From Ignavibacteriales bacterium (GTDB taxonomy: Bacteria; Bacteroidota; Ignavibacteria; UBA10030), in NCBI GenBank assembly GCA_026390595.1, contig JAPLFQ010000010.1:1-64000 (forward strand): DNA of 64,000 nucleotides, written 5' to 3'. Below the pieces are notes generated by a model. The model did no database searches, was not told where the DNA came from, and saw only the letters and a list, made by a program, of their open reading frames with translations. A program made the translations under genes and the position numbers. This document shows positions 27,882-51,472 of the stretch, in pieces; within the stretch, counting starts at the first letter, position 1, and every line of letters begins with the position of its first letter.

Positions 27882-27922
27882 CTCGGAACGTAGCGCAGCC
27901 CGGTAGCGCACTTGCTTGGGGT
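27882..27922 (+). other. attL: tRNA-Pro(GGG) 5' half, left copy of 41-bp direct repeat
   Basis: CTCGGAACGTAGCGCAGCCC continues as the D-arm, anticodon stem and loop of a tRNA-Pro: acceptor CGGAACG, D stem GCGC/GCGC, anticodon stem CTTGC and loop TTGGGGT. The sequence then leaves the tRNA (GATGTTCC...). No matching 3' half (GCAAG...CGTTCCG) follows. The identity stops exactly at the end of the anticodon loop. Confidence 0.85.
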
Positions 27923-28002: not shown

Positions 28003-28030
28003 CCTTGCATCCTTTTTCAAGGAGGCAAGG
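28003..28030 (+). promoter_or_regulatory. Hairpin hiding the Shine-Dalgarno of integrase 1
   Basis: CCTTGC (28003-28008) pairs with GCAAGG (28025-28030), and TCCTT (28010-28014) with AAGGA (28019-28023), loop TTTC. The ribosome site AAGGAGG (28019-28025) is inside the stem and the ATG is at 28032. Integrase 2 has the same arrangement with different bases, which suggests selection. Confidence 0.7.
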
Positions 28031-28031
28031 T

Positions 28032-29117
28032 ATGTTTCTTTCCAAGCGCAATGGAATCTATTATCTCTGGTATGACGATGACGATGGCCGCAAGCGCAAG
28101 ATCAGCACCAGAGCCCGCCTCAAAAGTGACGCACTAAAGTTCCTCCGTTCATTCGATGAGCGGCGTGAAGCCATTCGTCGAGCCAGAACACATCTTTCAG
28201 TCTTCTCCGTTGATGCCGTCCGCTATGCTGAAACCACTTTGAACAAGGGGACAGCCAAGCTCTACGATCATGCTCTCCGTAATTTCAAGAGGATCGTCGG
28301 CGACGCTCTCTTGTCCAAGCTAACACCGAAGCATTTCGACCAATACAAATCTGACCGTCTTCAGCAAGTGTCACCCGTCTCGGTGAACGTGGAGCTGAGG
28401 ACGATTCGGTCGGCTTTGAACCTCGCCGTGCGTTGGGAAGTGATGGAGAGGAATCCGTTCTTTGGGTTGCCGCTGGCTCGTGTCCCTTACGAAACGCCAC
28501 CTTACTTCACAAAGGCTGACTTCCAACGTCTGTTGGACATTGTCACAGAGTCATGGTTTCGAGATGTTGTCATATTTACTGTTGTGACGGGGCTTCGACG
28601 TGGTGAAGTCATCAACCTCAAATGGAATGATGTGGACTTGGAACGGAGGGTAATACTCATCCATAGTCAGGGGGGATTTCGGACTAAGACCGGCAAGAGC
28701 CGATTCATACCCATGAACAATGTCGCCCTGCAGCTTGTAATAAAAAGAAAACCTGTGAGTGTGACCGAGTATCTGTTCGAGGTGGAGGGAAGGAAACTGT
28801 CGGGGTATTGGTTGAGCCACAAGCTGAAAAAATACGTCCGAAAACTCGGGCTACAGGAGAACCTAAACTACCATGCATTGAGGCATACGTTTGCGAGCTG
28901 GTTGGTACAGGACGGGGTGTCGATCTATGAAGTTCAAAAGTTGCTCGGCCACGCTGACGTTTCTACAACACAGATCTACAGTCATCTTCAACCGGAAACC
29001 CTACATAGAACGGTTGAGAGGTTGGATTTTGTTTTGCCACAGCGGTTGCTACTAGAACCTGAAAGCATCCCCGATGTCTCCACCCTGTCCACTCCCGAAA
29101 ATACAACTGGACACTAA
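28032..29117 (+). CDS. Tyrosine recombinase, integrase of element 1
   Basis: 361 residues from ATG 28032. The N-terminal segment resembles SAM-like/Arm-type phage integrase domains (MFLSKRNGIYYLWYDDDDGRKRKISTRA). The catalytic set is complete: Arg189 (TGLRRGEV), the Lys of TKTGKSRFIPM, His-x-x-Arg (HALRHTFASWL), His in LLGHADVSTTQ and the nucleophile Tyr316. It is homologous to the integrase at 59041 throughout, with the same length and identical ends (LLGHAD.STTQIYSHL). The in-frame start at 28005 lies inside the leader hairpin and was rejected. The last codons already carry iteron-like CTGTCCA and TGGACA motifs. Confidence 0.95.
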   Translation: MFLSKRNGIYYLWYDDDDGRKRKISTRARLKSDALKFLRSFDERREAIRRARTHLSVFSVDAVRYAETTLNKGTAKLYDHALRNFKRIVGDALLSKLTPKHFDQYKSDRLQQVSPVSVNVELRTIRSALNLAVRWEVMERNPFFGLPLARVPYETPPYFTKADFQRLLDIVTESWFRDVVIFTVVTGLRRGEVINLKWNDVDLERRVILIHSQGGFRTKTGKSRFIPMNNVALQLVIKRKPVSVTEYLFEVEGRKLSGYWLSHKLKKYVRKLGLQENLNYHALRHTFASWLVQDGVSIYEVQKLLGHADVSTTQIYSHLQPETLHRTVERLDFVLPQRLLLEPESIPDVSTLSTPENTTGH

Positions 29118-32442: not shown

Positions 32443-33153
32443 ATGAAAAACCAATACTTCGGCGACATCAACGACTACAAAAAGTACGGCCTACTGAGGA
32501 TCTTATCCGATGAAGGCAGGATGAGAACAGGTGTGTGCTGGATGCTGACCCAAGACGATGGCGGAACGCATGGGTCGAAGACGAAATATCTTAAGGACCC
32601 CAGGAAATGGCGCCACTATGATCCAGACCTGTTTGATTTTCTGGTCCAACAAATGGATCCAGTCCGTGCTCGTGGTGTTGGGGACATATCCCGAAGCCAA
32701 ATCGTGTCGAACGCAATCTACTTCAATGAGATTCTGACAGACGATCGCATGGAGCGTAAGAAATACTTCGAAAACGTTCTGGGAGGTTTCTCCCAAAACC
32801 TGGACCTGATATTTTTTGATCCGGATATTGGTTTCGAGGTTAACAGTAAGCCAGTCGGGCGGAAGGGGTCTTCGAAGTATGTCTATTGGGACGAGCTGAA
32901 AGCAGCATACGATGCCGGCCATTCGCTCCTTGTGTATCAGCACTTTCCTCAGTTCGCATTGAGGGAGCCTTTCATAGCAAGGCTCACCTCGGAGTTACAA
33001 AAGAACATAGGGGCAAAAGGCGTAATCGCATTCAAAACATCGAATGTCTTGTTCTTCTTGGCGGTCCAGGAACGGCATAAGGTCAGAATGGAAGGATGCG
33101 CGAAGCGGGTAGTAAGCGCATGGGGAAAGGAAATCCTGTACCAGATTTACTAG
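32443..33153 (+). CDS. Conserved hypothetical protein of a widespread accessory family
   Basis: 236 residues, cytoplasmic, no recognised fold. The start MKNQYFGDINDYKKYGLLR and a VCWMLTQDDGG segment are typical of a conserved family found in accessory DNA, as I recall it. LIFFDPDIGFEVNSKPVGRKG looks like a nucleotide or metal-binding loop, and LLVYQHFPQ and GVIAFKTSN look like core strands of an alpha/beta fold. Catalytic role unknown. A nuclease or hydrolase is possible but not supported. Confidence 0.75.
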   Translation: MKNQYFGDINDYKKYGLLRILSDEGRMRTGVCWMLTQDDGGTHGSKTKYLKDPRKWRHYDPDLFDFLVQQMDPVRARGVGDISRSQIVSNAIYFNEILTDDRMERKKYFENVLGGFSQNLDLIFFDPDIGFEVNSKPVGRKGSSKYVYWDELKAAYDAGHSLLVYQHFPQFALREPFIARLTSELQKNIGAKGVIAFKTSNVLFFLAVQERHKVRMEGCAKRVVSAWGKEILYQIY

Positions 33154-33356: not shown

Positions 33357-34934
33357 TTACTCAATAAACACGATGCCCGGTCGATTGACATGATTTGCAA
33401 GCTTCGCAACAATATCCCCCAAAAGCTCCGATTTGATTCTGATTTTGACTGACCGCTCTCTAGCTTTTTCAAGATCTATCGATTTGAAGAGTCTGAAGTC
33501 CAAAATGATACTGATCGAGACGCCGTCAACTAGAAATGAAGGCTTAACTCTGTAGAAAGCCTCGCTCGTTTTCGCGTCGAGGTTATCGCTGCTATGATAC
33601 ATTAACCCAGATATGACTCTCGATTTCAACCATTTGTTCTGCGCGTAGTCGCAAACCGGCGAGACCTCCAATTCGATGAAAGTATAGTCATCGAGATTCT
33701 TGTTGTTTGGGTTTGCAAAATAGTTTGAAAGAAGTTCTTTCTTATGGTCTCCATTCTTCGGGGGGATCTCATATACATTCCCTGGGAGAAGCTCCTGCGA
33801 AGGAGCAGTGTCGAGATGAAGACGGGTATTTATCAGCTGAGCGGATTGTTCATACAGATCTACCATCTGGATGCAGAATCCCTTGTCGGGTTCAGTGAGA
33901 TTGTTTATTACTTTTTGTAAGTTCTTTCCATTGCCTATAGTCTTCCCGTTCTTCTTCAAGGTATACAAGTCATCGGCATTCAGCTCGAGTGCATATAGAT
34001 CTTTATCCTTAATCAGAGAAAATAAAAGATCCGTCGTTCGTAGATAATCAATGGCCGAGTAGGCTCGGTTTGTTTCGACTTCCAAAACGTCTTCGAAAGA
34101 TGCATTGAAAGTGCCGAGTGAGTTCTTAAGCAGCGCGACTGCATCAGCCACGTTGGAACCAAGCCTTGCCTTGGCCATTCGCTGCAAGATGGCACTCATG
34201 TTTTCATTCCAGACGTTGGCTGGACTAGTAGGGATTGCGAAACCATTCACAATGCGGGCCGAAGATCTGTGAACCAGATTTTCCCAAATAATGAAGATTT
34301 GAAATACTCCGAGTGATTTCAGTTTTTCATCCAAAGCTTCTTCAATCTTTTCAATCGCGTTTCCTTTTTCAACGTATTCAAGTCCCCCCTTCTCATCACT
34401 CTTCGAATCGAAATAGATAGCTTTCTCTAAGCTGATGATTCCGAGAGGAAGGCATAGCTTAAGTGTCTCCGACAGCGTTAGGCGTTCCGACAAGAGTTGG
34501 ATCAGGTGGTCATCCTTAGCCCAGACCAAAATGAAATATGGACCATTGTCCCGTGGTATGAGCCTCTCCATCACAGTGATGACTTTTGAAACTTTCGTGA
34601 TGTCATTCTGCCCTGCTGTCTCAAGTTCGATGTCAAGAAAAATCAATCTAGTGCACGAAAGTGGTTTGGCGGGTAATTCTCCAATTCTTCCATTGTAATA
34701 TGTGAACGGGATGTGATTTCTTGAAAGCACTTTCAGTAGTGGAAGGCTCTCGGTTATGTTATCATCGATTACGATCACCCGACCATTCATCGGAATATTC
34801 ATCGTCGAAGATTCGTGAACTGTTGTCGCCGCTTTCTGAGTCAATTTAGCCTGAACGGCATCTTTTGTCTCTTTGCCGGGCGTAACCATAAGCTCTCGAT
34901 CGATAAGTTTTCGGAGTCCTAGTGCAACATCCAC
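33357..34934 (-). CDS. Receiver-like protein, partner of the dual-GHKL kinase
   Basis: About 525 residues from GTG 34934. A receiver-like domain covers the first 200: acidic VIVIDDN and acceptor-like Asp101 in LIFLDIELE, then FILVWAKDD in place of the usual switch. The remaining 320 residues are not recognised (LGSNVADAVALLKNSLGTF ... FLVDGVSISIILDFRLFKS). The longer ORF to 35006 would overlap the kinase gene by 65 bp and is antisense-like there, so I prefer GTG 34934 (7 bp after the kinase stop); ATG 34889 is another option. The gene order suggests kinase and target. The receiver resembles the family called Response_reg_2, which I name from memory. Confidence 0.72.
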   Translation of the reverse strand: MDVALGLRKLIDRELMVTPGKETKDAVQAKLTQKAATTVHESSTMNIPMNGRVIVIDDNITESLPLLKVLSRNHIPFTYYNGRIGELPAKPLSCTRLIFLDIELETAGQNDITKVSKVITVMERLIPRDNGPYFILVWAKDDHLIQLLSERLTLSETLKLCLPLGIISLEKAIYFDSKSDEKGGLEYVEKGNAIEKIEEALDEKLKSLGVFQIFIIWENLVHRSSARIVNGFAIPTSPANVWNENMSAILQRMAKARLGSNVADAVALLKNSLGTFNASFEDVLEVETNRAYSAIDYLRTTDLLFSLIKDKDLYALELNADDLYTLKKNGKTIGNGKNLQKVINNLTEPDKGFCIQMVDLYEQSAQLINTRLHLDTAPSQELLPGNVYEIPPKNGDHKKELLSNYFANPNNKNLDDYTFIELEVSPVCDYAQNKWLKSRVISGLMYHSSDNLDAKTSEAFYRVKPSFLVDGVSISIILDFRLFKSIDLEKARERSVKIRIKSELLGDIVAKLANHVNRPGIVFIE

Positions 34935-34941
34935 AACTAGG

Positions 34942-37035
34942 CTAAGCACTATCCTTAAAAGCGAGACAAACCATCGCGCCGTCTTTGAATTCCTGAGGTA
35001 CATCAAAATCTCCTTGGTCAGGGAAGATCAGAAGGCCTCCGTGGGCTTCCATTATCTCCCTGGACAAATGCAGACCGAGTCCCATTCCATAGGGCTTCGT
35101 CGAAACAAATGGTTTTGCCAATTCTTCGGTTGGCATGGAGAATCCGGGGCCGTTATCTGCAACTATGATTGTGGTGTAGCCGTGTAATTCTTTCGAGATC
35201 GAAAAATAAATCTCTTTGTCCTCTGTTTCACTGTATTCAAGCCACCATATCGAATTATCAATGAGGTTCATAAGGGCCGCCAACACAAGGTTCTCAGCAC
35301 ACTCGATCCTGTCGATTCCTGGGAAGTACTCAAAAGCCCTGCGCGCACGAATCTTGTGAACCTTAAGCCTGAACTCAACGTTGAAAAGTGCTTGGCTTAG
35401 CAAGTACTTAGGATCGACTTTCTTTTTTCCGGTGTTCCTTATGAGCAGTCCGTATCCTTCTAGCAGCTGTGATAGGTGCTTGACCAAGGCGACGATTCGT
35501 TTTGAAGGCTTGTCGTTCTGTGTGACTATGATTAGTTCCTTTATCACTTTGTCGACTTCATGTATTACTATGCTTAGGTTCAATCCCGCACCGGCGCTTC
35601 TAAGAAGTATCTCAGTCATGCTTCTATAGTCATTCTGTATCTTGTGAATATACTTCTTGACCTCCCGTTTGAGATCCTCGTCTTTGATCTTTCTCTCAAT
35701 AACCTTCTCAAGTTCATCCAGGCTCGCGACAACAGGTTCTGGGATCGATTCCGTCCCATAGAACTTTCTAACCTTGTCTTTGTCGACGTTCCTCATCGTC
35801 TCAACGATGTTCAGAGAGTAGAGGATTGCCTTTACAAAAGTCTCGTAGGCCTCATTCTCAACAAATCCTTCCCGGTTGGTTTTCTCAATCAGGTCTTCAC
35901 TGGCTTCTCGTGATAGATTAATTGCTCCAAGGATTATGTTATTACTGATTCTCTTAACCGGGACGTTCACGCGGCGGATATCCAGACTTAGCCAATCATT
36001 TCCTGGATCGCCGTATTCGTTTATCCTGATGCCGTCTCTATAGACTCTTATACCCCCGTTTGCATTTAGATAATCCCGTAGGCCTCGTTTGTCTTGGACG
36101 CCGAGAGACAAGACTCGTGGAGTTCTGTCGAAAATTACGCCTTCGAAAGTCACTGGACCCATCTTGGAGGCGGACAAGTCGATCGCCTCGTCCTCATCAT
36201 CAACCATCTTCAACAGATTCTTGATTTCATTGTCTTTCTCGTCCAGCGACCTTCCGTTCAACTTCTTCATTGCTGGGAAGGGAGTGAATTCATATTTGAA
36301 AGATGTGATCACTTTCCCTTCCATCCTACAGTTGAATCTGTACAATGCATATTGAGATACCTCATCCCAGGACATCAGTCCCTTTATCCACTCCTTTTCG
36401 TCAACATCAAACACCACAAAAAAGGACTCGGGAGTATCAAATGGGGAGGACAGGGCGTTAGTGGAACGATACACGTCCCTGACCATTCCACGTGTCCATG
36501 GCGCATGGAGACTTGATATGGTAATTCGGGTGCCGGTCTTGTCGCCGATAAACACTTCGGGCTTCCGGGTGTAAACGGAAACAGGAACATCGTCCAAGTA
36601 CTTTTCCTTCGCAAATGTTCGCCAATCAATTTGTAGGTACACTTCATCACAGTCTTTCTGGCGAGTGACAAGTTCTATTACGTTCCCAAGCTTATGCGCT
36701 CCAAATCTGCCAATCCCTTTTTCACCAAGTGGCAATCTTCCAAACCTGTGCGAACGGATTCTCTTTGCAAACAGCTGCGTCTTGTAGTCGCTCCCCGGTT
36801 CCATCCATACATTCTTGACGATCTCTGGATCCATTCCAATGCCATCGTCCTCAACGACTATGGATCCCGCAGCGTCATCTGATACCTTTGACATGGTGAT
36901 TTGTACGAAGTTAGCATCTGCGTCATACGAATTCTTGGCAAGCTCCAAAAGGGCGATGCTTGGATTCTTGATTAACTGATCCCCAAGTTGAAGCAGCAGT
37001 CTGGCTCTCGGTTTGAATACAAGTTCCTGTTTCAC
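34942..37035 (-). CDS. Soluble kinase-like protein with two GHKL ATPase domains
   Basis: 697 residues, no membrane helix. N-terminal GHKL ATPase (1-200): Asn35 in ELAKNSYDADA, VVEDDGIGMD, then GIGRFGAHKLG. Middle linker of about 250 residues. An H-box-like helix has His492 (NLSIVIHEVDKVIKEL), and a second GHKL domain follows at the C-terminus (LMNLIDNSIWWLEY, DNGPGFS, GMGLGLHLS). The C-terminal part is a histidine kinase core, while the N-terminal part is Hsp90/MORC-like and may be the sensor. The receiver-like gene follows after 7 bp. A two-component defence or stress system is my inference. Confidence 0.78.
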   Translation of the reverse strand: MKQELVFKPRARLLLQLGDQLIKNPSIALLELAKNSYDADANFVQITMSKVSDDAAGSIVVEDDGIGMDPEIVKNVWMEPGSDYKTQLFAKRIRSHRFGRLPLGEKGIGRFGAHKLGNVIELVTRQKDCDEVYLQIDWRTFAKEKYLDDVPVSVYTRKPEVFIGDKTGTRITISSLHAPWTRGMVRDVYRSTNALSSPFDTPESFFVVFDVDEKEWIKGLMSWDEVSQYALYRFNCRMEGKVITSFKYEFTPFPAMKKLNGRSLDEKDNEIKNLLKMVDDEDEAIDLSASKMGPVTFEGVIFDRTPRVLSLGVQDKRGLRDYLNANGGIRVYRDGIRINEYGDPGNDWLSLDIRRVNVPVKRISNNIILGAINLSREASEDLIEKTNREGFVENEAYETFVKAILYSLNIVETMRNVDKDKVRKFYGTESIPEPVVASLDELEKVIERKIKDEDLKREVKKYIHKIQNDYRSMTEILLRSAGAGLNLSIVIHEVDKVIKELIIVTQNDKPSKRIVALVKHLSQLLEGYGLLIRNTGKKKVDPKYLLSQALFNVEFRLKVHKIRARRAFEYFPGIDRIECAENLVLAALMNLIDNSIWWLEYSETEDKEIYFSISKELHGYTTIIVADNGPGFSMPTEELAKPFVSTKPYGMGLGLHLSREIMEAHGGLLIFPDQGDFDVPQEFKDGAMVCLAFKDSA

Positions 37036-38163: not shown

Positions 38164-38727
38164 TTAGCTAGCCTTCCGAAATGATGTGGTTTGGATTATG
38201 CCCCCAAATGACAACACCCATGCAGAAAACAGGACCATACCAAACCCGAGTTGAGTCTTCCCAGTTGTAACGCCTAGAATGAAACAAAAGAGATACCATG
38301 CAAGGCTGATGATGAGTGTAATTCTCAGGTATTTCAATGGCTTGATGGCCTCACTTTTGGCTATCGCCTTCTTTGTTTGTGTGATGCCAACTATCGGATA
38401 AATAACTGCATAAAGAAATGCCAAAACTAGAGTCAAGCCTTTAGCATCATTATTTCCTTGCTCACGGAATAGGTTGCCCAAATAGAAGCACAAACTTATC
38501 CATACAAAGCCACCAATGAACATGAATCTTAATGATCTCGTGGTGGTCTGGATTACCTCAATCAGAGCGGATCCTTGACTAGGCGCATCAGACTTCGTGC
38601 CCGCATCACCGTATCCCCCGTGTTGACCGCGCTCAACTGATTGCTTCGATCTCAAATCAACATGACAATACCGACAGAGTATGGCCTCATCTTGGATTTC
38701 TTCGGCGCAGTAGGGGCATTTCTTCAT
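38164..38727 (-). CDS. Zinc-ribbon membrane protein, paralogue A
   Basis: 187 residues. The N-terminal zinc ribbon has Cys4 and Cys7 (KKCPYCAEE) with a second pair CRYCHVDL. After a low-complexity linker come four hydrophobic helices between about 70 and 180. The zinc ribbon [13 protein letters not shown] is nearly the same as in the gene upstream (38776-39432), so the pair is paralogous. The cytoplasmic zinc ribbon plus membrane anchor could localise or regulate a complex. Function unknown. Confidence 0.75.
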
Positions 38728-38775: not shown

Positions 38776-39432
38776 TTACTTCTTCGTTGTAAGCGTTCCG
38801 AGGACACGCCAACTACCCGCGTCTGTTTGCATGTACCCGACTCCGACGTTAATAAGGCCCTTCTCGAAATTCTGTATGCTCTGATATGGTTGCACTCTCG
38901 ATTTGGTGTAACCTTGTTCAAGTAGGCTGTTGACCATACGATTCGCCTGATCTACTGAAGCTTCTTCTGACACACACGCGTATACTTTCACTACTGTTAC
39001 CTTGCCGTCCCCCTGGGTGCTCACCATGTCAAAACCAGAGGCTCTTTCGTAGATCAGAACTGTGCTCAACTCTTGAGTCTGGCTTCGAGTTGGGGTGCCC
39101 AAGAATCCAACGAGATCTGATTTTCCTAGACTTAGCACCGGTTCATAATCGCTTGGGAACAGCATTGCAGATTGGCTACGTCTTGGTGGTCCCTCTTCCT
39201 TCTGAATATTCAAGATCACGCCGACTGCGAGCACCATCATGACGAATATGATGGCATACCAATGCTTGACGAACGATACGACTCCTTTTGGGATGATATT
39301 GCCCCCATCGAAGCTCGACCCATCACCTTTGGATCGTACCTGCACATCGCTCAGATCCGAGCCACAGTATTCGCAATTGTTTGCCGCATCTTGGATTTCT
39401 TCGGCGCAGCAGGGGCATCTTCTCACGCTCAC
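38776..39432 (-). CDS. Zinc-ribbon membrane-anchored protein, paralogue B
   Basis: 218 residues. Zinc ribbon at the N-terminus (CPCCAEEIQDAANNCEYCGSDL), one membrane helix (AIIFVMMVLAVGVILNI) and an extracytoplasmic domain of about 130 residues that has a conserved-looking lipoprotein/SmpA-like pattern (LGKSDLVGFLGTPTRSQTQ) and ends KK. The G-x-P-T-R pattern resembles the outer-membrane lipoprotein SmpA family, but this is weak. It is preceded by the structured element at 39565-39691. Confidence 0.72.
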   Translation of the reverse strand: MSVRRCPCCAEEIQDAANNCEYCGSDLSDVQVRSKGDGSSFDGGNIIPKGVVSFVKHWYAIIFVMMVLAVGVILNIQKEEGPPRRSQSAMLFPSDYEPVLSLGKSDLVGFLGTPTRSQTQELSTVLIYERASGFDMVSTQGDGKVTVVKVYACVSEEASVDQANRMVNSLLEQGYTKSRVQPYQSIQNFEKGLINVGVGYMQTDAGSWRVLGTLTTKK

Positions 39433-39720: not shown

Positions 39721-40185
39721 TCAAGCGAGGCGGGAGCGCTGTATGAAAATCGTGACGCTTAGCTTTGAAATCTCCTCATTCGAAAACTGAACCCCAGAAT
39801 CTCTCACGACTTCGACCGCATCGCGAATGGACTGGAAGAGAAGCTCCTTGAGATTATCACCTGATGGTGTCAAATGCGGCTCAGATGATTTCTCAAGAAT
39901 CGAAAGCTCCAGTTTCGAACTTCCCTTCTTGCCATTTGCCACACGCTTGAGAAGAAACTCACTGCCAACCCCGAGCTGTTTCTCCTCGATGATCGAGTGT
40001 ATCTCCTCAGTCGCAAACAGGCTTCGGATTTCTCCACTCCCCAGATCCTGCACTGAATACAGATAGAACTTTCCGTAGCTGCTCTGACCTGCGTAGACAG
40101 GTTTGAGAATCTTGAACCGGGCTTCTTGGTTCAGCTCAAGCTCAACCTTCGGTGGGTTGTTGCCATTTCCGTTATTCTGTCCCAT
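39721..40185 (-). CDS. Hypothetical protein, possible OB-fold accessory factor
   Basis: 154 residues from ATG 40185, which has GGAGG upstream. The pattern ARFKILKPVYAGQSSYGKFYLYSVQD followed by GSEFLLKRVANGKKG hints at an OB-fold. It overlaps the end of the Gam-like gene by 14 bp, so the two belong to one transcript. A single-stranded-DNA-binding role with Gam would make sense but is not proven. Confidence 0.65.
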   Translation of the reverse strand: MGQNNGNGNNPPKVELELNQEARFKILKPVYAGQSSYGKFYLYSVQDLGSGEIRSLFATEEIHSIIEEKQLGVGSEFLLKRVANGKKGSSKLELSILEKSSEPHLTPSGDNLKELLFQSIRDAVEVVRDSGVQFSNEEISKLSVTIFIQRSRLA

Positions 40186-40714
40186 TTGACGGACCTCCAT
40201 TGTTGTTGAGTTGATATGAGAAATTGACTCCTGCAGGGATCAGTTTGGTCCCAAGTGGAATCTCGCCAGTGCGTTTGATGTGTGCAGCAATTGCTGCCAG
40301 ATCCGGTTCGTGTTTCTCAGGCGTGGTTCGTAGCCACCCATTACGAGGAGCGATCTTGAGAAAGATGGCCAAGTTGTCGATCTCGATCTTGTCTCGCCCT
40401 TTGCGAAGTGTGAGCGTACCGTGTGGCAACCGAAGGGTCTTTTCACCGGTCTGTTCGGATTGCACGCGCCAGAAGCTCTCAACGTTGAAGAGAAGCCATG
40501 ACCGCTTTTTGTCCAATCGCTCGATCTCCGATTTGCGATACTGCTCGATCAATTTGATTTCGTCATCAGCAAGTGTGTTCACATCGTCCATTTGGGACTC
40601 AAGTTTCGCCACAGCCATCAACAACTGATCTGCTTTCAGGCGGTCCAGCTCGATCTTTACCTTTTGTTCCTTCTCTTCGACCTCAGCCAACAACTCATCC
40701 ATGAACGAAGTCAT
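40172..40714 (-). CDS. Gam-like host-nuclease inhibitor
   Basis: 180 residues from ATG 40714 with a perfect GGAGG. The first half is a long coiled coil (EKEQKVKIELDRLKADQLL ... DKKRSWLLFNVESFW), and the second half has the pattern RLPHGTLTLRKGRDKIEIDN typical of Gam/Gp157-like phage proteins that protect DNA ends. Phage Mu Gam binds linear ends and blocks RecBCD-type enzymes. It stands in the phage-type cluster of element 1 and would protect linear or replicating element DNA. Confidence 0.78.
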   Translation of the reverse strand: MTSFMDELLAEVEEKEQKVKIELDRLKADQLLMAVAKLESQMDDVNTLADDEIKLIEQYRKSEIERLDKKRSWLLFNVESFWRVQSEQTGEKTLRLPHGTLTLRKGRDKIEIDNLAIFLKIAPRNGWLRTTPEKHEPDLAAIAAHIKRTGEIPLGTKLIPAGVNFSYQLNNNGGPSNGTE

Positions 40715-40797
40715 TTGTGTCTCCTCCACGCAATGATCGATTCCAACGCAGCAAGAACGCTGCAGAGAATCGCATACACGAATTTGATATGTTTCAC
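40711..40797 (-). CDS. Tiny ORF 2, 28-residue membrane-type peptide, coupled to Gam-like gene
   Basis: GTG 40797 to the TGA at 40711-40713. The stop overlaps the Gam ATG as ATGA. GGAGG stands five bases before the GTG. The peptide has a hydrophobic stretch of about 18 residues (FVYAILCSVLAALESIIA) followed by basic residues (RRHK). Confidence 0.5.
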   Translation of the reverse strand: MKHIKFVYAILCSVLAALESIIAWRRHK

Positions 40798-40883
40798 GGA
40801 ACCCTCCATGTTTTGAGTCCGCTAGAGAGCGTCGCGAAGATAATCCTAATCGCCCGCCAGATTCTTTTCCAGTTGATGTTCAT
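40794..40883 (-). CDS. Tiny ORF 1, 29-residue basic amphipathic peptide
   Basis: ATG 40883 to the TGA at 40794-40796. AGGAG precedes the ATG. The stop overlaps the GTG of ORF 2 (GTGA). The peptide is basic and aromatic (NWKRIWRAIRIIF). The ORF is too short for routine lists but the ribosome site and the overlap chain argue for translation. Confidence 0.48.
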   Translation of the reverse strand: MNINWKRIWRAIRIIFATLSSGLKTWRVP

Positions 40884-41069
40884 ATTTATCTCCTAGTGAA
40901 ATAGAAAGAAGCCGCCGCCGATCATCACCCCTAGAGTTTGAGGTTATGAGTGTGACTTTGGCGGCTCCAGATAGGGAAACGCCCCAACGTCCTAAAGACA
41001 ATGCAAGGCCGAGCCTGCAAAGCCCAAGCTGAATGGGGGAGCGCTTCGAATTGAATGGAAAATGGTGGG

Positions 41070-42038
41070 TTAGTTCTTGAGGTACTCTTCGGCAAGAGAA
41101 AACGCCCGCTGCTTCAGCTTTTCGCCCGACCCGAACCACATACTTTTCAGCCGTTTGCTCGGATCTTCGGTTGTGCTGACGTGATCCACAAGTTCAGTGA
41201 CGGCGTTGTATGCGCCAAACAGATTACCCTTGTGCATCGTCGCATCTCGCTGTGTTGCGTGAATATCGAGGATCTTCTTGCGAAGGTTCTCAGTCCGGGT
41301 GTTGCTCTCTGCTTCCGGATTGTCTGGGATCAGCGTTCTCACATACTGGATCAGTTCACGGTCCGTCATCTTGCGCAATGCAAAACGATTGAACACGAAA
41401 TCCAGTTGTTGATAGAGATGATTCGTGAGCCCCAGCAGCTTGTGCGCTTCCTCCAGCTTTGCAGGAGCTGTTGCAGTGTGCTTAATCTTCACTTCCTGTT
41501 CAGTGCCTGAAAGAGCAACAGACAGCGTGTTGTTGCATACGACCCTGATAGGGGTCAACTTGATTCGGATGTGCGAGCTGCCGTCGTGAGAGTTGTAGAG
41601 CAGCAGGTATTTCTCGATCAGATCATTCGACTTGCCGACTCGGATGTAGCCAGGCAGCTTTGCGAGCAACCAGATCTTCTCGCCCTTACCCAGAACTCCT
41701 CCCGTGTGGTAGATCGCTTCATCACGGTCAACCAATGGATCGAAGAAACCGAATGCATCGCGATTCTGAACAGGCTCGTAGCGTGAGCCAACGACTCCTA
41801 GGACTGTACCTGTGTCCGATCTGACGGTTGCGAAATGATCCGGAACCAAAACGCTCTGCCGACTGATCTTTGTGAACAGTGGTCGCTTGACCACCTGGTA
41901 GTCGAGTCCCGCTGCTTCGATTGCTTGAGCAGCTGTGGCAGGGTTTGCCAATTTTCGGCCCAGACGATGCCAAGGAGTTTCCCCAAAATAAAACATACTG
42001 GCTTGGCCCGATCTGCCGATGTTGAGATTGTGTGCCAT
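41070..42038 (-). CDS. DUF932 family phage/plasmid protein
   Basis: 322 residues. The family pattern is clear: the first 25 residues (FGETPWHRLGRKL), VLGVVGSRYEPVQNRDAFGFFDPLV and GEKIWLLAKLPGYI, and later the YNSHDGSSHIRIKLTPIRVVCNNTL stretch. DUF932 proteins are widespread in phages and plasmids and their role is not known; they may bind DNA. It lies 28 bp after the PUR-alpha-like gene on the same strand. Confidence 0.88.
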   Translation of the reverse strand: MAHNLNIGRSGQASMFYFGETPWHRLGRKLANPATAAQAIEAAGLDYQVVKRPLFTKISRQSVLVPDHFATVRSDTGTVLGVVGSRYEPVQNRDAFGFFDPLVDRDEAIYHTGGVLGKGEKIWLLAKLPGYIRVGKSNDLIEKYLLLYNSHDGSSHIRIKLTPIRVVCNNTLSVALSGTEQEVKIKHTATAPAKLEEAHKLLGLTNHLYQQLDFVFNRFALRKMTDRELIQYVRTLIPDNPEAESNTRTENLRKKILDIHATQRDATMHKGNLFGAYNAVTELVDHVSTTEDPSKRLKSMWFGSGEKLKQRAFSLAEEYLKN

Positions 42039-42281: not shown

Positions 42282-42619
42282 AGAACTCCTTTCGGGTTAG
42301 TGATGTGAACATCCACACCTTCTTATACCAGAAAAATAGGGGACCCGTTTTCCCAGAGAATGAGCCTCAACGGGAAGCAGTGTTACATCAGATCCTATCG
42401 GCGGAGGTACTACGACATAGACCGGGAAGCAGATCAAACGGACCAGGATGACCGCGGATTTCGTATGGGGAGAAGTGAATCCCAAGATTTTTTTTGGTTT
42501 TGGAATTTGGACCCTATTGGCGGGATAGTACCGTCTGACCCGAATAAGGTGTTTTCACTATTTTTTGTTTGGGAAGAATTGCGGTTATATGAGGTCGAGG
42601 TGTCGTATAGGATGGCAAA

Positions 42620-42711
42620 TGTGTGGCAGAAGTGTCCCGGACGCATCGAAAAGGATGGCAAATGTATGACAGATGTGTCAGAAGAGTATACCGGATGTGT
42701 GACAAAAGTGT
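42620..42711. repeat. Three to four 16-bp direct repeats in a gene-free spacer
   Basis: TGTGTGGCAGAAGTGT (42620), TGTATGACAGATGTGT (42663) and TGTGTGACAAAAGTGT (42696) share the consensus TGTRTGRCARAWGTGT. A fourth overlapping motif begins near 42675. Each is nearly a palindrome. They could bind a regulator of the genes on either side. Confidence 0.6.
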
Positions 42712-42722
42712 ATACGACCTAA

Positions 42723-43227: not shown

Positions 43228-44718
43228 ATGAGTAGAACTGAACGCCTGTCGCCGAATTTCGAGCGACTCGACAAGGCCCTGCGCTCAATCGGATATAGCT
43301 TCGAGGCTGCAGTTGCCGACATCATTGATAATTCAATTGACGCCAAAGCACGACATGTTCTCGTTCGGTTCATTCTCCGAAAAAACAAATCGCTGGACCT
43401 TGCTATCCTAGACGACGGCACTGGAATGAGTCCTGCCACCCTGAAGGAGGCCATGCGCTTCGGTGCGGACGTTGCTCAGGAATTGGACAGGCTTGGCAAA
43501 TTTGGCCTTGGGCTGAAACTCGCCTCTCTGAGTCAGGCAAAGGAACTCAGGGTGGTCAGCTACAATGGCTCCACCACCTCGGGCCGGGGATGGCTCGAGG
43601 AAGGCATTTCCTCGGGATTCATGTCAACCATCCTCGATCCCTCCGAATGTCGCAAGATGCTCAAGTCGCTTGTGCCCGACCGGCCTTGGAAAAAATCGGG
43701 GACGGTGGTGTGGTGGTCAAATCTTTATCGCGTAGGTCAAAATCATTCCGACTCAAACGAACATGTGCAAAAATTGATGCGCCGGCTCAAGGAATACCTC
43801 TCCTTGGCCTTCCACCGATTTCTTGCAGGTAGTCCGCGCTTGGTCAATATGGAGATCGATATTTTTGATGGAGACTCAAGCCTTGAGGGACTGCCCCTTC
43901 CCTTGGAGCCCTTGAACCCATTTGGATACAACGCTACGGGACTCAAGGGATTCCCGGCTGAATTGGTTACCGCTGACGGATATGAAAATCGCATCAAGAT
44001 TGTTGGCCACATCTGGCCGCCGAACTCCTCGGTGGCGGAATATGCACTCCCAGGTGGTGCCAACAGTCGTCAGGGGTTCTATTTTTATCGGAACAACCGG
44101 CTGATTCAGGGCGGCGGTTGGAACGGAATGCGCGAAGCCGAGCCCCATCGCTCGCTTGCACGTCTCGAAATAGACATGCATCCGGATTTCGACGTCGATG
44201 TCAGCCTCGACGTAAAGAAGGTTGAAATCCAGTTGCCTCCGGATCTCGTGAAAGCCATCCAGCGATCAAAAACCGCCTCTGGGATTGATTTCAAGAAATA
44301 CCTGTCCCTTGCCGAGGATACATATCGAACTAAACCCGTGACGGAAGACGAACTGCCTTTGATTCCCGTGGATGGTCTGCCCGCCGATCTCTGTGATTTT
44401 CTCCTCAAGGAGCTTAGAATTGATGGCACGAAGCGATACCGAAAGCTCCGCTTCGCTTGGACGAATCTGGACCCGAATTCGTTTTTTGAATTGGATCGTG
44501 ACAGCGATATGCTTCGGATGAACAAACTATATCGCCGCCAGCTTTTACATGGTCTCGACGGCTCCTCGACGGACATTCCCGTCGTGAAGTGCTTGCTTTT
44601 CCTTGTCCTTCGTGATGTGTTGTATTCTCAGCGCATCAGCGCTAAGGTCCGCGAACGGATAGAGCAGGCAAACCGCATTCTTGCCTATGCCGTGAAGTAC
44701 GAGCGGAGCATTGGATAG
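43228..44718 (+). CDS. MutL/MORC-like GHKL ATPase of a restriction-type operon
   Basis: 496 residues. The N-terminal GHKL motifs are complete: Asn35 in DIIDNSIDAKA, DDGTGMS, and GKFGLGLKLASLS. The remainder is a MutL-like domain without a recognised nuclease site. Aravind and colleagues described MutL/MORC-type ATPases in operons with Z1, DUF4420 nuclease, methyltransferase and Vsr, and this is the same gene set. It is the first gene of the operon. The stop overlaps the next gene's possible TTG start. Confidence 0.9.
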   Translation: MSRTERLSPNFERLDKALRSIGYSFEAAVADIIDNSIDAKARHVLVRFILRKNKSLDLAILDDGTGMSPATLKEAMRFGADVAQELDRLGKFGLGLKLASLSQAKELRVVSYNGSTTSGRGWLEEGISSGFMSTILDPSECRKMLKSLVPDRPWKKSGTVVWWSNLYRVGQNHSDSNEHVQKLMRRLKEYLSLAFHRFLAGSPRLVNMEIDIFDGDSSLEGLPLPLEPLNPFGYNATGLKGFPAELVTADGYENRIKIVGHIWPPNSSVAEYALPGGANSRQGFYFYRNNRLIQGGGWNGMREAEPHRSLARLEIDMHPDFDVDVSLDVKKVEIQLPPDLVKAIQRSKTASGIDFKKYLSLAEDTYRTKPVTEDELPLIPVDGLPADLCDFLLKELRIDGTKRYRKLRFAWTNLDPNSFFELDRDSDMLRMNKLYRRQLLHGLDGSSTDIPVVKCLLFLVLRDVLYSQRISAKVRERIEQANRILAYAVKYERSIG

Positions 44719-44719
44719 C

Positions 44720-45703
44720 ATGAAGAAGCCGGCATACATATCCTGGCAGAATTTCTGCGCAACCATCATCGTTGAAGGAGAGCAGCGAACTCACAAAGTC
44801 TCCAATTCCCCGAGAGTGGATTTCTTCTGGGATGGCCAAGGGAGGCGCGTTGGCCTATGGCTTGAAACAGCTTCGGACACGACCCTATCGCCTGAATTGC
44901 TGAAGCTGTCTTTTGTCGACCTCGATGTCGTAAAAGTTGGCACCCGAAACTTCCTCGAAATTGCCACCACATCGAAATCGTTGAGAAGGCAGTTCTACCA
45001 CTTCGCAGTCGCAGTGACGGAGAAGATGTTGTCAGGCGAGGTCTCAGCGCTGGATGCTGTGACTGCCGAATTGCAGTGTTTCGCCGAATTGCTTGCAGAG
45101 CGCTTGGTTCTTGGGGTTGAACGCCAGATAGGATTGCTCGGGGAGCTCTTGTTCTTAGAGCGGCTGACTGCTTCGAAGGGAATTCAAATGCTGGATTGTT
45201 GGGTCGGTCCGGATGCCGAGCCGCATGACTTCCGCGTTGACACGCGCGAATTTGAGGTGAAGACGACCGTTGCCCCGAAGCGGGTGCATATCATCCATGG
45301 TGCCGAACAGTTGGTTGCGTCCAAGGATTGCTCGCTTTTCCTTCTGTCTGTCATACTCGGCCCGCCTGGCGACTCTTCGAGCTTTTCGCTCGCCGGCAAA
45401 GTGCGCGACGTCGAGCGACTTTTCACTGCCAATGCAGCCCGGAAGAAACGATTTTTCGAAAAATTGGAGAAAGCCGGCCTGCGCAAGACCGACCTCGCCC
45501 ACTACGGTCGTAAATATTCTTTTCGCCGTGCTCTTGCCATCATCCCTGTGGACAACAAGTTTCCGGCGTTGACCCGGCCTGTGATACAGAAGGCCATCGG
45601 GTCGCTCTCTCAGCGAATCGAATCAATGCAATATGCCGTGAACCTTGAGGGCCTCGAAAAGGAGGATGGCAGTCCGCAATTCGCTGCCGCCGTTCTCTCG
45701 TAA
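44720..45703 (+). CDS. PD-(D/E)XK motif protein (DUF4420), putative nuclease
   Basis: 327 residues from ATG 44720. A TTG at 44711 overlaps the previous gene, so ATG is preferred. The signature is present: QIGLLGELLFLERL, then HDFRV with Asp170, and the catalytic Glu179-Val-Lys181 in FEVKTT. It is an endonuclease-fold protein of the type found with Z1 and GHKL ATPases. In that arrangement it would be the DNA-cutting subunit. The gap to the Z1 gene is 13 bp. Confidence 0.88.
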   Translation: MKKPAYISWQNFCATIIVEGEQRTHKVSNSPRVDFFWDGQGRRVGLWLETASDTTLSPELLKLSFVDLDVVKVGTRNFLEIATTSKSLRRQFYHFAVAVTEKMLSGEVSALDAVTAELQCFAELLAERLVLGVERQIGLLGELLFLERLTASKGIQMLDCWVGPDAEPHDFRVDTREFEVKTTVAPKRVHIIHGAEQLVASKDCSLFLLSVILGPPGDSSSFSLAGKVRDVERLFTANAARKKRFFEKLEKAGLRKTDLAHYGRKYSFRRALAIIPVDNKFPALTRPVIQKAIGSLSQRIESMQYAVNLEGLEKEDGSPQFAAAVLS

Positions 45704-45716
45704 CTGGAATACACAC

Positions 45717-48671
45717 ATGAAAAATCACGTCGACAGAATCAATGCGGCGCTTGGCGCGATGACAGATCGCCCACGCGCTTTGGTTGACTATCTTCGAAAG
45801 CCCGGCCCGGACTTCGAATCAGCTGACGCGCGGGAAATTCAAAAGATGCTTTCTGTGATTCTCTCGCCTGACCCGAATGACCCCACACGGATTAGATTTT
45901 CAAATCTGTTGCATTCTTGGGATAACGCGAAGGATGGGGAGTGGGTGGGGCAAACTGTCCGAAACTCTTCGACGCGGCGAGCGCTTATCCACATACTGTT
46001 GAAATCGGACAAAGATCTTATCATACGCATTGATGCTCTTTTGCCTTACTACCCACTGGAAGAGCCGCTAATCATCGCTGAAGAACACGCTGACTGGTAT
46101 TCCCCGTCGGTCGGGGTGCGTGACTATTATTGGCGCACATACACCAAGTATCTCCGGGAGCGGCGCGGTTGGGGCGACGTGTCTTTGCTGAATCTCGATA
46201 ACAGCACGCGAAGCATACTTGAATGCCTGTCGAATCCAGAATCGAAGGGCATGTATTCGTCGCGGGGGCTGGTCATGGGCTACGTCCAAAGCGGCAAAAC
46301 GGCCAACTTTGCGGGTTTGGTGGCGCGAGCCGCGGACGTCGGCTATCGCCTTATTATTGTGTTGGCTGGCACCTGGAACATTTTGCGCAACCAGACTCAG
46401 CGACGATTCGATAAAGAACTCTTGGGCAAGGAATTGCTCCACAACGACGACACTTATCAGAATCAACGTCCGGCTGACTGGGATGAGTTTCTTGAGCACG
46501 GGGCGTACCCGCCCGATCTTGGCCACTACACATGGCAGCGGTTGACGCGTCCCGATATTGATTTCAGGGGACTCAAGGCCGCCATTGACAACCTTGAGTA
46601 TGAAAAACGTTACAGGCATCTGCCACTGCATCATCCTGAAAACCTGCACCTTCTCCCCGTGAAGCTCTTGGTAGTGAAGAAAAACAGCTCGGTTCTGGGG
46701 AAGCTTGCGGGCGACTTGGGCAAGTTGAAAACACGCCTCGCTGAAATTCCAACGCTCGTGATCGATGATGAATCAGACCAAGCGGGATTGAACACAGTCG
46801 ACCCAAAAAAGGCGAAGGTCGGCAGGGAAAGGACGGCGACAAACAAGGGCATCATCCGCTTATTGAACCTGCTGCGCCGCGGCCAGTATGTGGGCTACAG
46901 TGCCACCCCCTATGCGAATGCGTTGGTGAATCCAGATGACCCCGAGGACCTTTTCCCGAAAGACTTCATCATTTCTTTGGATCGCCCGGTCGGTTACATG
47001 GGGATTTCTGATTTCTTTGACCCATTCGTTGACTATCATGATCTGAAGAAGAATGATTTTTCCCAGCCGGAACTGGCGTTCATCCGGCGCGTGGAGACCC
47101 CACAAGCAGACGACGACGAGGATTTGAAACAGGCGCTTCGCAGCTATGTGCTCGCTGGCGCGGTGAAACTTTACCGCCTGAACAAGGACACCACTCGTTA
47201 CAAGCCCGAGTCCCTGAAGCACCACACCATGCTCATTCACACCTCATCCCGCAAAGGTGTGCATGCGTCCCTGGCAGAACGGATTCTCGAGCTTTGGGAT
47301 GAGTGTGCCTTCAACAGCCCAGATGGCCTCAACGAACTCAGGAAGTTGTGGGAATCGGATTTTCTTCCAGTCTGCAAGATTCAAGGGAAGGACGAACTTG
47401 TTCCCACTTCGTTCAATGAACTAAAACCACACCTTGCCGTCTCGGTGCAAAAAATCACCCGCGACTCGCATTTCGTCAGAGTCGTGAACAGCGACAAGGA
47501 TGAAGCGCCAGATTTTAGCCACGGTCCGGTATGGAAAATAGTTGTCGGCGGTAACAAGCTCTCGCGCGGTTACACGGTCGAGGGTCTCACGGTAAGTTAC
47601 TACCGGCGCGTTGCCAACACGGCGGATACACTGATGCAGATGGGTCGGTGGTTTGGATTCCGTCCGGGCTATCGCGATTTGGTCCGTGTGTTCCTCGGAG
47701 TTCAGGAGGGTAGGGACAAGTCTCTCGATTTGGTTGCGCTTTTCAAGGAGGTTTGCCGCATGGAGGAGAGCTTCCGCGAGGAGATCAAACGCTATGTTAG
47801 ACGGCCCGGCGCACCGAAGATCACACCTCGTCAGATTCCACCGTTGATTGCCATCTCGGGCGATTTGCCTCCCACGGCTCGGAACAAGATGTTTAACTCG
47901 AAACTTGACCGGAAGAATTTTGGGGGCCGGTGGTCAACTCTCACGCTTACGGCTGCGAAAGCAGCTTCTCTGAAGGAAAACCTTCGGGCGTTACAGAAAC
48001 TCCTCGGTACAGGATCAACCATGGGGCGGCGTGCTCTGGGTGGAACCTTCGGAGACGGGAAAACTGCGCTCGCTGATTGTCTTGTCTTTGAAGTGTCTAA
48101 TGCACAATTGATTTCTTTTCTACATGACTACCGCTGGCTTGAATCAGAATACAAATACCCAGAGCGTCCTACTGACGTCAATCTCCAGATTGAATTCCTT
48201 CAGAACCAGAAACACGATATCACCTCTTGGCTGCTCCTGTTTCCACAACGCAAGATCTCGTTCGGACCAAAGCTTGCGCTGAACCCCTTTGGCGAGTTCA
48301 CCGTTAAAGAACGCCACCGGGTTGGAGAGCGGCGGTTCGGGATATTTGGCGAGTCGTCTCATCACGCCATTGCTGAATCCTTGGTTTCGAAAAAGGATAA
48401 GCAGAAGATTCAGCTTGTTTCCTTAAATGAAGCGACCAAACAACTTCAGAAACGACAACGCGGCATTGCCCTGTTCTATCCAGTTCGCGAGACGGAAGCT
48501 CAAGCAGTCTCAATTGGCTTCGAACTCTTGTTTCCTGCGAACAATCTGCCATTCGACCTCGGCTTCACTGTGCGCCGAAAATCCGAAAGCACGCGGATCA
48601 TCGTTCCAGCTTCGCATATCGCCGCTGAGGCCGCTCGAGAAGAAGATATTGCCGACCGGGGCATCCAATGA
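45717..48671 (+). CDS. Z1-domain ATPase of the restriction-type operon
   Basis: 984 residues from ATG 45717. The Z1 hallmark sequence is clear: Walker A GYVQSGKTANFAGLVARAAD (Lys about 194), Walker B VIDDESDQAGLNT, a GYSATPYAN motif, and the QMGRWFGFRPGY arginine motif. Z1 proteins are helicase-type or translocase-type ATPases. Large C-terminal extension after about 650. With the GHKL ATPase and DUF4420 nuclease it should form a restriction complex. The next gene is 47 bp on. Confidence 0.92.
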   Translation: MKNHVDRINAALGAMTDRPRALVDYLRKPGPDFESADAREIQKMLSVILSPDPNDPTRIRFSNLLHSWDNAKDGEWVGQTVRNSSTRRALIHILLKSDKDLIIRIDALLPYYPLEEPLIIAEEHADWYSPSVGVRDYYWRTYTKYLRERRGWGDVSLLNLDNSTRSILECLSNPESKGMYSSRGLVMGYVQSGKTANFAGLVARAADVGYRLIIVLAGTWNILRNQTQRRFDKELLGKELLHNDDTYQNQRPADWDEFLEHGAYPPDLGHYTWQRLTRPDIDFRGLKAAIDNLEYEKRYRHLPLHHPENLHLLPVKLLVVKKNSSVLGKLAGDLGKLKTRLAEIPTLVIDDESDQAGLNTVDPKKAKVGRERTATNKGIIRLLNLLRRGQYVGYSATPYANALVNPDDPEDLFPKDFIISLDRPVGYMGISDFFDPFVDYHDLKKNDFSQPELAFIRRVETPQADDDEDLKQALRSYVLAGAVKLYRLNKDTTRYKPESLKHHTMLIHTSSRKGVHASLAERILELWDECAFNSPDGLNELRKLWESDFLPVCKIQGKDELVPTSFNELKPHLAVSVQKITRDSHFVRVVNSDKDEAPDFSHGPVWKIVVGGNKLSRGYTVEGLTVSYYRRVANTADTLMQMGRWFGFRPGYRDLVRVFLGVQEGRDKSLDLVALFKEVCRMEESFREEIKRYVRRPGAPKITPRQIPPLIAISGDLPPTARNKMFNSKLDRKNFGGRWSTLTLTAAKAASLKENLRALQKLLGTGSTMGRRALGGTFGDGKTALADCLVFEVSNAQLISFLHDYRWLESEYKYPERPTDVNLQIEFLQNQKHDITSWLLLFPQRKISFGPKLALNPFGEFTVKERHRVGERRFGIFGESSHHAIAESLVSKKDKQKIQLVSLNEATKQLQKRQRGIALFYPVRETEAQAVSIGFELLFPANNLPFDLGFTVRRKSESTRIIVPASHIAAEAAREEDIADRGIQ

Positions 48672-48718
48672 GTAAGGGCAAGCCTGTCTCCCAAATGTCA
48701 CACTCGATTGCAAAGTAA

Positions 48719-50260
48719 ATGCCACTCCCCATCCCTGTCATAGACCTCTTTGCCGGGCCGGGCGGCCTTGGCGAGGGTTTCTCCCGCTGGCGTGGCCGCG
48801 ACGGAAAGCCGGTTTTTAAGATCCGCCTTTCGATTGAGATGGACCCGTGGGCGCACCGCACCCTCCTGCTACGATCCTTCTACAGACAGTTCGAACCCGC
48901 CAATGTGCCGTGCTCATATTATCAATACCTTCGCGGAGAAATGGAATTTGATGAGCTCGAAAAAAGATTCAAACGTGAATTCACCACAGCGCGCTTAGAT
49001 GCGTGGCGAGCCACACTTGGGGAAACCGATCCCAAGGAAGTCAGCTCACGGATTACTTCGGCTCTTGGCCGGGAACGTGACAACTGGCTGCTGATTGGCG
49101 GCCCGCCGTGTCAAGCTTACTCGTTGGTGGGTCGTTCCCGTATGATTGGCGAGAAGGGGCGCGCTGAATTCGAGAGGGATCATCGTCACTTTCTCTACCG
49201 AGAGTATCTGCGAATCATCGCCCGGCATCAGCCGGCTGTTTTTGTCATGGAGAACGTGAAAGGTCTGTTGTCCGCGCAGGTCGGTGACCAACCCATGTTC
49301 CCACTCATCCGTGCCGATCTCCAAGACCCTCTGCGGGTTTTCCCTGAACTGCGGAATCAATCCCGTCGGAAAAATCTCCACTATACGTTATTTTCTCTGG
49401 TCGTTAAGCGCGATCTCGCGGTTGATTTCGAGTCTTCGGATTTCGTCGTCCGGGCTGAGGATTACGGAATACCTCAAGCCCGGCATCGCGTTATCATTCT
49501 CGGAGTGCGTGGCGATACCGCATTTCAACCCGGGCTTCTGAAATCCACACGCACAACCACAGTAAGAGAGGTCATCGGAGATATGCCGCCACTCCGAAGC
49601 CGGCTGTCGTCAAAAGATGCCCCGGAATCGTGGGCTGCAGCAATTCGGTCCCTAGAGAATCTGCGATGGAGCGACAAATCAAATCAGGCCAGAGTGATCC
49701 GTGTAGCTTTGGAGCATAGATTGCGCCGCATTCGTCCCAACCTTTCCGTCGGCAGTTCTTTTGTCCCCTGCCAGACGAATCCCGAACGGCATGAGCGTTG
49801 GTATGTTGACCGGCGCTTGGGCGGAGTCTGTAATCACGAAACGCGTGGCCACATTGAGGGGGATTTGCGTCGCTACTTTTTTGCGGCTGTATTCGCCGCC
49901 GTCTCCGACCCGCCGCGCTCACCCTTGCTACAGGATTTACCGGCCAGTTTACTTCCAGATCACGAGAATGTGGATGAGGCGCTGAAAACGACCAAGTTCA
50001 ATGACCGTTTTCGCGTCCAGCTTGCCGACCGCCCATCGACAACGGTGGTGTCACACATTTCCAAGGACGGCCACTATTACATTCACTACGACCCATCGCA
50101 GTGTCGCAGCCTGACCGTCCGCGAAGCGGCGCGTCTGCAAACCTTCCCTGACAACTACTTTTTTGAAGGCCCGCGGACTGAACAATATCACCAGGTTGGC
50201 AACGCCGTCCCGCCCTTGCTCGCAAAACAGATTGCCGAAATCGTTGCTGGTTTATTTTGA
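48719..50260 (+). CDS. DNA (cytosine-5) methyltransferase
   Basis: 513 residues. All the main C5-methyltransferase motifs are present: SAM-binding VIDLFAGPGGLGEGF at the start, catalytic Cys131 in GGPPCQAYS, ENVKGLL with Glu178, a target-recognition region, and the final motifs (LTVREAARLQTFPDNYFF, YHQVGNAVPPLLA). It would modify the recognition site and so protect the host against the operon's nucleases. The downstream gene follows at 10 bp. Confidence 0.95.
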   Translation: MPLPIPVIDLFAGPGGLGEGFSRWRGRDGKPVFKIRLSIEMDPWAHRTLLLRSFYRQFEPANVPCSYYQYLRGEMEFDELEKRFKREFTTARLDAWRATLGETDPKEVSSRITSALGRERDNWLLIGGPPCQAYSLVGRSRMIGEKGRAEFERDHRHFLYREYLRIIARHQPAVFVMENVKGLLSAQVGDQPMFPLIRADLQDPLRVFPELRNQSRRKNLHYTLFSLVVKRDLAVDFESSDFVVRAEDYGIPQARHRVIILGVRGDTAFQPGLLKSTRTTTVREVIGDMPPLRSRLSSKDAPESWAAAIRSLENLRWSDKSNQARVIRVALEHRLRRIRPNLSVGSSFVPCQTNPERHERWYVDRRLGGVCNHETRGHIEGDLRRYFFAAVFAAVSDPPRSPLLQDLPASLLPDHENVDEALKTTKFNDRFRVQLADRPSTTVVSHISKDGHYYIHYDPSQCRSLTVREAARLQTFPDNYFFEGPRTEQYHQVGNAVPPLLAKQIAEIVAGLF

Positions 50261-50270
50261 TGGACATCTT

Positions 50271-51470: not shown

Positions 51471-51472
51471 AT

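Follow-up and report, generated by a model that had tools for sequence, protein, structure and literature searches.

What does a histidine kinase that carries a second, MORC-type ATPase domain do when it travels with a receiver protein on a mobile element? The question is raised by two neighbouring genes in the window, by which we mean the whole stretch of 64,000 nucleotides analysed here (positions 1 to 64,000 of contig JAPLFQ010000010.1, Ignavibacteriales assembly GCA_026390595.1). An earlier note, made from the letters of the DNA, had suggested a phosphorelay defence system. Our answer, to which we give a probability of about 0.5, is that the genes encode a soluble two-component pair, carried as cargo of an element in a tRNA-Pro gene, that serves as a defence module, either guard or effector, beside 5-methylcytosine (5mC) restriction-modification (R-M). 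The features on which this answer is built are the following.

34942–37035 (minus strand): kinase gene, 697 amino acids (aa); open reading frame (ORF) list, Pfam, AlphaFold2 model, fold matches
36601–36960 (minus strand): N-terminal GHKL domain of the kinase, HATPase_c_3, residues 26–145; Pfam, E 6e-19
35560–35562 (minus strand): codon of His492, putative phosphoacceptor of the H-box (V-I-H-E), kept in 28/28 family kinases
35023–35280 (minus strand): C-terminal histidine-kinase ATPase, HATPase_c, residues 586–671; Pfam, E 9e-18
33357–34889 (minus strand): receiver partner gene, 510-aa numbering; the longest ORF reaches 35006 and the start, 34889 or 34802, is unsettled
34293–34784 (minus strand): receiver domain of the partner, about residues 36–199; fold matches to ComE, CheY and PmrA, Z 8.1–9.1
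34632–34634 (minus strand): codon of Asp86, putative phosphoacceptor (Asp101 in the earlier numbering), kept in 26/26 partners
33375–33797 (minus strand): C-terminal domain of the partner, about residues 365–505, with conserved C413-D414 and R503-x-G505; partner alignment

Both ORFs described in the earlier note are present, and the fold predictions it had proposed as a check returned a MORC fold and a kinase-core fold for one protein and a receiver fold for the other. The kinase gene starts at a GTG codon with an AAGGAG-like site upstream, and its product (AlphaFold2 model, mean predicted local distance difference test score, pLDDT, 77.7) runs from a MORC-type GHKL domain through a second, S5-like domain and an H-box helical pair to the histidine-kinase ATPase. 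The best Foldseek match of the N-terminal half was a MORC2 ATPase with DNA mutant (E 1e-10), and in the fold comparison this half matched Morc3 with Z 18.1 over 293 residues at a root-mean-square deviation (rmsd) of 4.5. An N-terminal GHKL domain followed by an S5 domain, as in MORC and paraMORC proteins, is what the fold matches gave; the GHKL assignment of the earlier note stood, and its Hsp90/MORC-like label is better replaced by MORC/paraMORC-like. The C-terminal half resembles the kinase cores of DivL, ZraS, ThkA and HK853-type proteins (Z about 17–20). In the model His492 sits in the helix 484–507, followed by the helix 512–532 and then by the ATPase, which agrees with the H-box helix and histidine kinase ATPase that had been proposed.

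The partner (mean pLDDT 76.9) had been described as a 525-residue protein with a receiver fold. The fold was borne out, with matches to receivers over about residues 30–200 (ComE best at Z 9.1, CheY 8.9), while the start was not: the longest ORF (33357–35006, minus strand, 549 aa from the first TTG) and the 525-aa form, which begins within the kinase gene, are less likely than a start at ATG 34889 (510 aa) or at ATG 34802 (481 aa, level with the starts of homologues). Pfam, NCBIfam and PADLOC have no family that matches the partner, and a BFVD fold search gave generic receivers and noise only.

Its C-terminal region had been called unassignable, and indeed no sequence library names a domain there. 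The region (365–505) aligned with CcdB 4elz (Z 9.0, rmsd 3.3, 103 aligned residues) and with eight MazF entries (Z 8.2–8.6, in the top 50), these being the sole non-receiver rows among the 50 listed fold matches of the partner; Foldseek also gave MazF 5cr2 (E 0.011). Under the tool's own caution a Z under 8 may mean a mere common arrangement, and these values lie barely above it. We rejected the matches as proof of identity, since the comparison with a MazF profile (up to 19 sequences, hhalign) gave a probability under 1%. The CcdB/MazF likeness, seen by fold only, may serve as a lead only.

To learn whether the genes belong together elsewhere, relatives, named here by locus (L) and genome (G) handles, were gathered by three routes. 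A search of genome contigs with the partner sequence gave 4 loci; a partner profile matched 11 of 395 genomes of the phylum and gave 9 loci once the window and one partial false match had been removed; and a kinase profile run against viral contigs gave 16 loci, 14 of them full length. The weak partial match in G293 (L057) stands outside all counts, as do L080 and L081, which match the GHKL part only. In each of these two loci a GHKL protein akin both to BbrUII/HgiDII and to the N-terminal part of the kinase (L080:7932-9800, L081:7941-10124) adjoins a C5 methyltransferase with no receiver gene. The kinase alignment has 29 rows, or 28 once the ordinary histidine kinase of the window (7842–10070) is discounted; the partner alignment has 26, the identical loci L072 and L076 being omitted. 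Near-duplicates within the 28 loci are L069/L068, L072/L071 and L076/L079. Neither a translated search of plasmid and phage records nor the partner query in viral contigs found relatives; these negatives reflect the seed patterns, since the kinase profile found its 16 loci in viral contigs.

Conservation of His492 and co-occurrence of the genes had been named beforehand as tests of the phosphorelay proposal, and both were found throughout. His492-Glu493 is kept in 28/28 kinases, window included, and the 17 aligned kinases show no variation in the N, G1 and G2 boxes or in the GHKL residues of the N-terminus. Among the partners Asp42, Asp86, Trp123, Lys156, Cys413, Arg503 and Gly505 are kept in 26/26, Asp414 in 25/26 and Asp43 in 22/26. 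The predicted phosphorelay residues are, in these alignments, under strict conservation. Kinase and partner are consecutive, in this order and on the same strand, in 28/28 loci; outside the window the gap between them is −20 to +26 bp. Their distances are correlated at r = 0.93 over 24 loci (0/999 permutations as high), compared with 0.43 between kinase and methyltransferase over 24 loci, likewise with 0/999 permutations as high; the near-duplicates L069, L072 and L076 were omitted here, as was L073, which lacks a methyltransferase. Kinase and partner are an inseparable unit. The C5 methyltransferases of the loci form several deep clades, so they seem to have been exchanged while the pair was retained.

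A C5 methyltransferase adjoins the pair in 26 of the 27 relatives (most weak matches were confirmed by Pfam), the exception being L073. One such neighbour, the 546-aa ORF of L048 (L048:2808-4448) directly before the pair, matches both a C5 methyltransferase and Vsr and is apparently a fusion. A Vsr (12) or HhH-GPD glycosylase (4) is present in 16/27 relatives; both kinds of enzyme can repair the T:G mismatches that arise when 5-methylcytosine is deaminated. Some loci have a dedicated restriction enzyme, namely L053 (EcoRII-C), L070 and L078 (MvaI/BcnI), L054 (AspBHI-like) and L013 (HNH_2); in others the scanned ORFs included none, and as only selected ORFs were scanned this does not imply absence. 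In L012 a single run holds Vsr, methyltransferase, kinase, partner, a NOV_C protein, an MzaB-like protein, Z1, DUF4420 and AIPR. The cassette lies near a tail hub (GPD) gene in L068 and L077. The pair of L073, a viral contig, is flanked by terminase/portal genes on one side and by a gpA-type replication gene on the other, and no methyltransferase was found in the 18 kb examined. The cos-proximal gpA-gpQ interval has been described as an anti-phage hotspot of P2-like phages (PMC9122126), and on the available text of that source the L073 prophage copy occupies the published defence hotspot interval.

In the window, the setting of the pair is defined by these features.

27882–27922 (plus strand): left 41-bp repeat, which marks the left end of the element and is the 5' half of tRNA-Pro (GGG); repeat search
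28005–29117 (plus strand): tyrosine integrase of the element; protein family scan
43228–48671 (plus strand): MZA-like genes, namely MzaB ATPase (43228–44718), MzaD-like DUF4420 (44711–45703) and MzaC-like Z1 (45645–48671); Pfam, PADLOC, NCBIfam
48719–50260 (plus strand): C5 cytosine DNA methyltransferase, candidate partner of the pair; PF00145
50163–51470 (plus strand): AspBHI-like modification-dependent restriction enzyme (RE_AspBHI_N + Mrr_cat); domain matches
51473–51904 (plus strand): Vsr mismatch endonuclease; protein family scan
58894–58934 (plus strand): right copy of the 41-bp repeat, with the same sequence as the left; repeat search

The pair is firmly placed as cargo of a 31-kb element integrated in a tRNA-Pro gene, and the cargo setting proposed in the earlier note is confirmed. 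A tyrosine integrase follows each 41-bp repeat in the window; tRNA-Pro is intact in a relative from the same genus, whose left flank is similar, and at the third copy of the repeat, near 97.8 kb in this genome. Two integrative elements stand here in tandem in tRNA-Pro(GGG), the first at window 27882–58934 and the second at G000:C10:58894-97869, and the second repeats DNA like window 39770–41900 (DUF932/Gam region) at 82–85% identity. No methyltransferase adjoins the pair of the window. The enzyme at 48719–50260 is the only PF00145 protein found in this genome (95.7% complete); it lies in the same element, 11.7 kb from the pair, between the MZA-like genes and the AspBHI-like enzyme with its Vsr, and the closest to it in our set (54% identity) is the pair-adjacent methyltransferase of L071/L072.

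Taken together, the conservation of His492 and Asp86, the inseparable pair, the adjacent methyltransferases, the Vsr and HhH-GPD enzymes, the mobile location, the L073 prophage and the MORC2-DNA fold lead us to favour a defence module. In such a module the kinase would use its MORC-type GHKL clamp to sense DNA or the methylation state of DNA, as MORC and MutL biology and the methyltransferase neighbourhood suggest; the C-terminal ATPase would phosphorylate His492, and the phosphate would pass to Asp86 of the partner, steps to which the conserved residues point. The C-terminal domain of the partner, once switched on, might then act against the nucleic acid or growth of phage or host, or alter the activity of the linked R-M enzymes. 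The phosphorelay part of the original proposal is thus matched by conserved residues, and its defence part is argued from context, namely the methyltransferases in 26/27 relatives and the prophage copy between gpA and portal genes.

Several points weigh against this reading. A regulatory role would suit several relatives equally, since these have a dedicated restriction enzyme as neighbour. We infer both phosphotransfer and phage defence, and PADLOC holds no system model for the pair, its sole match there being REase_II on the GHKL part of the kinase (E 2.5e-12). The window receiver has Ala124 (34518–34520) at the conserved Thr/Ser position that ends strand 4, where the other 25 of the 26 partners have T/S; this counts against full canonical switching here and could weaken the receiver. 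Finally, the window methyltransferase, at its distance of 11.7 kb, belongs to the MZA-like operon.

Regulation of the linked R-M genes, by a kinase that senses methylation or nucleotide state and a phosphorylated partner that controls the expression or activity of methyltransferase and endonuclease, is a live rival, although we hold it to be unlikely. Two-component pairs usually regulate, and dedicated restriction enzymes adjoin the pair in the five loci given above; however, the partner has no known DNA-binding domain in Pfam, four minimal loci (L014, L051, L055, L074) have no separate restriction enzyme identified (not every ORF was scanned), and the methyltransferases were swapped while the pair was retained. 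Somewhat less probable is a methylation-gated phosphorelay in which the MORC clamp-kinase would read C5 methylation and transfer from His492 to Asp86 would unleash a CcdB/MazF-like effector; the pair would then be the half of a 5mC system that carries out restriction or abortive infection.

The second live rival, which we regard as improbable, takes the pair to be the restriction half itself, an ATP-dependent two-protein endonuclease that replaces the restriction endonuclease (REase), as BbrUII/HgiDII-type GHKL proteins hold the same place beside a C5 methyltransferase. The kinase N-terminus does match the BbrUII/HgiDII model NF050001 (E 9e-19 in the window, 6e-30 in L074), L080 and L081 show such a protein beside a methyltransferase with no receiver, and there are loci with methyltransferase, kinase, partner and repair enzyme in which no REase was identified. 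Yet the NF050001 match is confined to the GHKL part (residues 15–179) and scores 67.5 bits against a cut-off of 550, no nuclease motif was recognised in kinase or partner, and some loci own an REase. In L073, moreover, no methyltransferase was found in the 18 kb examined; a restriction enzyme in that situation would kill its host unless it were kept under tight control. That the His-Asp chemistry is unused, the kinase being a MORC/MutL-like clamp and the receiver fold a docking subunit only, is very improbable: Ala124 and the paraMORC families of R-M operons, described as ATPases without phosphorelay in the available text of PMC2292703, speak for it, but His492, Asp42, Asp86 and Lys156 are invariant and the N, G1 and G2 boxes intact across 17–28 diverged sequences.

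The defence module we favour would join a MORC-type DNA clamp to a phosphorelay, in a pair that stays together in distant bacteria and in prophages and almost always has a cytosine methyltransferase next to it. If true, it would tie signal transduction in bacterial immunity to epigenetic self-marking. The subfamily has compact prophage loci of methyltransferase, kinase and receiver that can be cloned and tested in laboratory strains.

Other features of the element were observed alongside. Beside the pair, on the opposite strand, lies a 236-aa ORF (32443–33153) with no match in Pfam, NCBIfam or PADLOC, and two adjacent, related zinc-ribbon genes (38164–38727 and 38776–39432) have 43-nt starts that are 88% identical. 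Upstream of the MzaB-like gene a 34-nt direct repeat occurs three times (42603–42712), possibly as iterons or operators. The run at 43228–51904, with MzaB, DUF4420 and Z1 followed by C5 methyltransferase, AspBHI-like enzyme and Vsr, is a variant near the type I system of PMC9523054; the methyltransferase, Z1 and DUF4420 genes of the element are similar to the putative defence systems that were identified there by language-model classification.

How, then, does the pair stand to known systems? The paraMORC and prokaryotic MORC ATPases (Iyer et al. 2008, PMC2292703) share with it a GHKL and S5-like N-terminus, an R-M setting, Vsr and mobility; as described in the available part of that paper, however, their C-termini are nuclease, TIR or of unknown kind, whereas the window kinase has a kinase core and a receiver partner. 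The BbrUII/HgiDII enzymes likewise have an N-terminal GHKL domain beside a C5 methyltransferase, but their match to the window kinase ends at residue 179, with a score far under the cut-off. The defensive two-component system Detocs comprises three genes and in its best-known form has an ATP-degrading PNP effector; to our knowledge it has no link to a MORC-type GHKL domain or to a methyltransferase. What it has in common with the pair is two-component-style signalling for phage defence (PMC11249213, available text). The MZA anti-phage system also has a GHKL, MutL-like ATPase, and its genes lie in the same element as the pair and directly beside it in L012, but they are separate genes, and the match of the MZA ATPase to the kinase profile is limited to the first GHKL motifs.

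The closest counterpart is the two-component-like pair HEF_HK (PF19191) and Response_reg_2 (PF19192), tied to R-M by Bellieny-Rabelo et al. 2021 (PMC8011034); the available text of that paper assigns it no tested function, and its authors suggest regulation of the linked R-M genes. Both pairs consist of a kinase with HATPase_c_3, H-box and HATPase_c and an adjacent receiver gene, share a core His followed by an acid, and have C5 methyltransferase and Vsr neighbours. With E values allowed up to 10, PF19191 matched neither the window kinase nor any of four close relatives, and it gave no match at the locus in the genome search, whereas the positive control L063, of the same phylum, matched at 9e-29; PF19192 likewise missed the window partner and matched the control L058, also of this phylum, at 5e-34. 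Profile against profile, the window-type and PF19191-type kinases aligned with an hhalign probability of 100% (E 1.9e-53, 671 columns), His492 being level with the HEF His, and the receivers of the two partner types with 81% (E 1.2e-5). Their C-terminal parts gave nothing significant (hhalign 2.4%); by eye, a Cys-Asp motif and a closing Arg-x-Gly are seen at the end of both partner types. Eight PF19192 loci have the order C5 methyltransferase, long kinase, partner, and their kinases of 966–1001 aa contrast with about 700 aa in the window subfamily, which mostly has another group of C5 methyltransferases. One genome, G436, holds both the short and the PF19192-type long subfamily, on separate contigs (L056, L062). 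A wholly new system was rejected because the same kind is already described in the available text of PMC8011034. Since there is profile homology without Pfam matches, we place the window pair in a shorter subfamily of its own, alike in kind to the published pair and outside both Pfam families: judged by these alignments, it is a diverged sister subfamily of HEF_HK/Response_reg_2 that escapes the published models.

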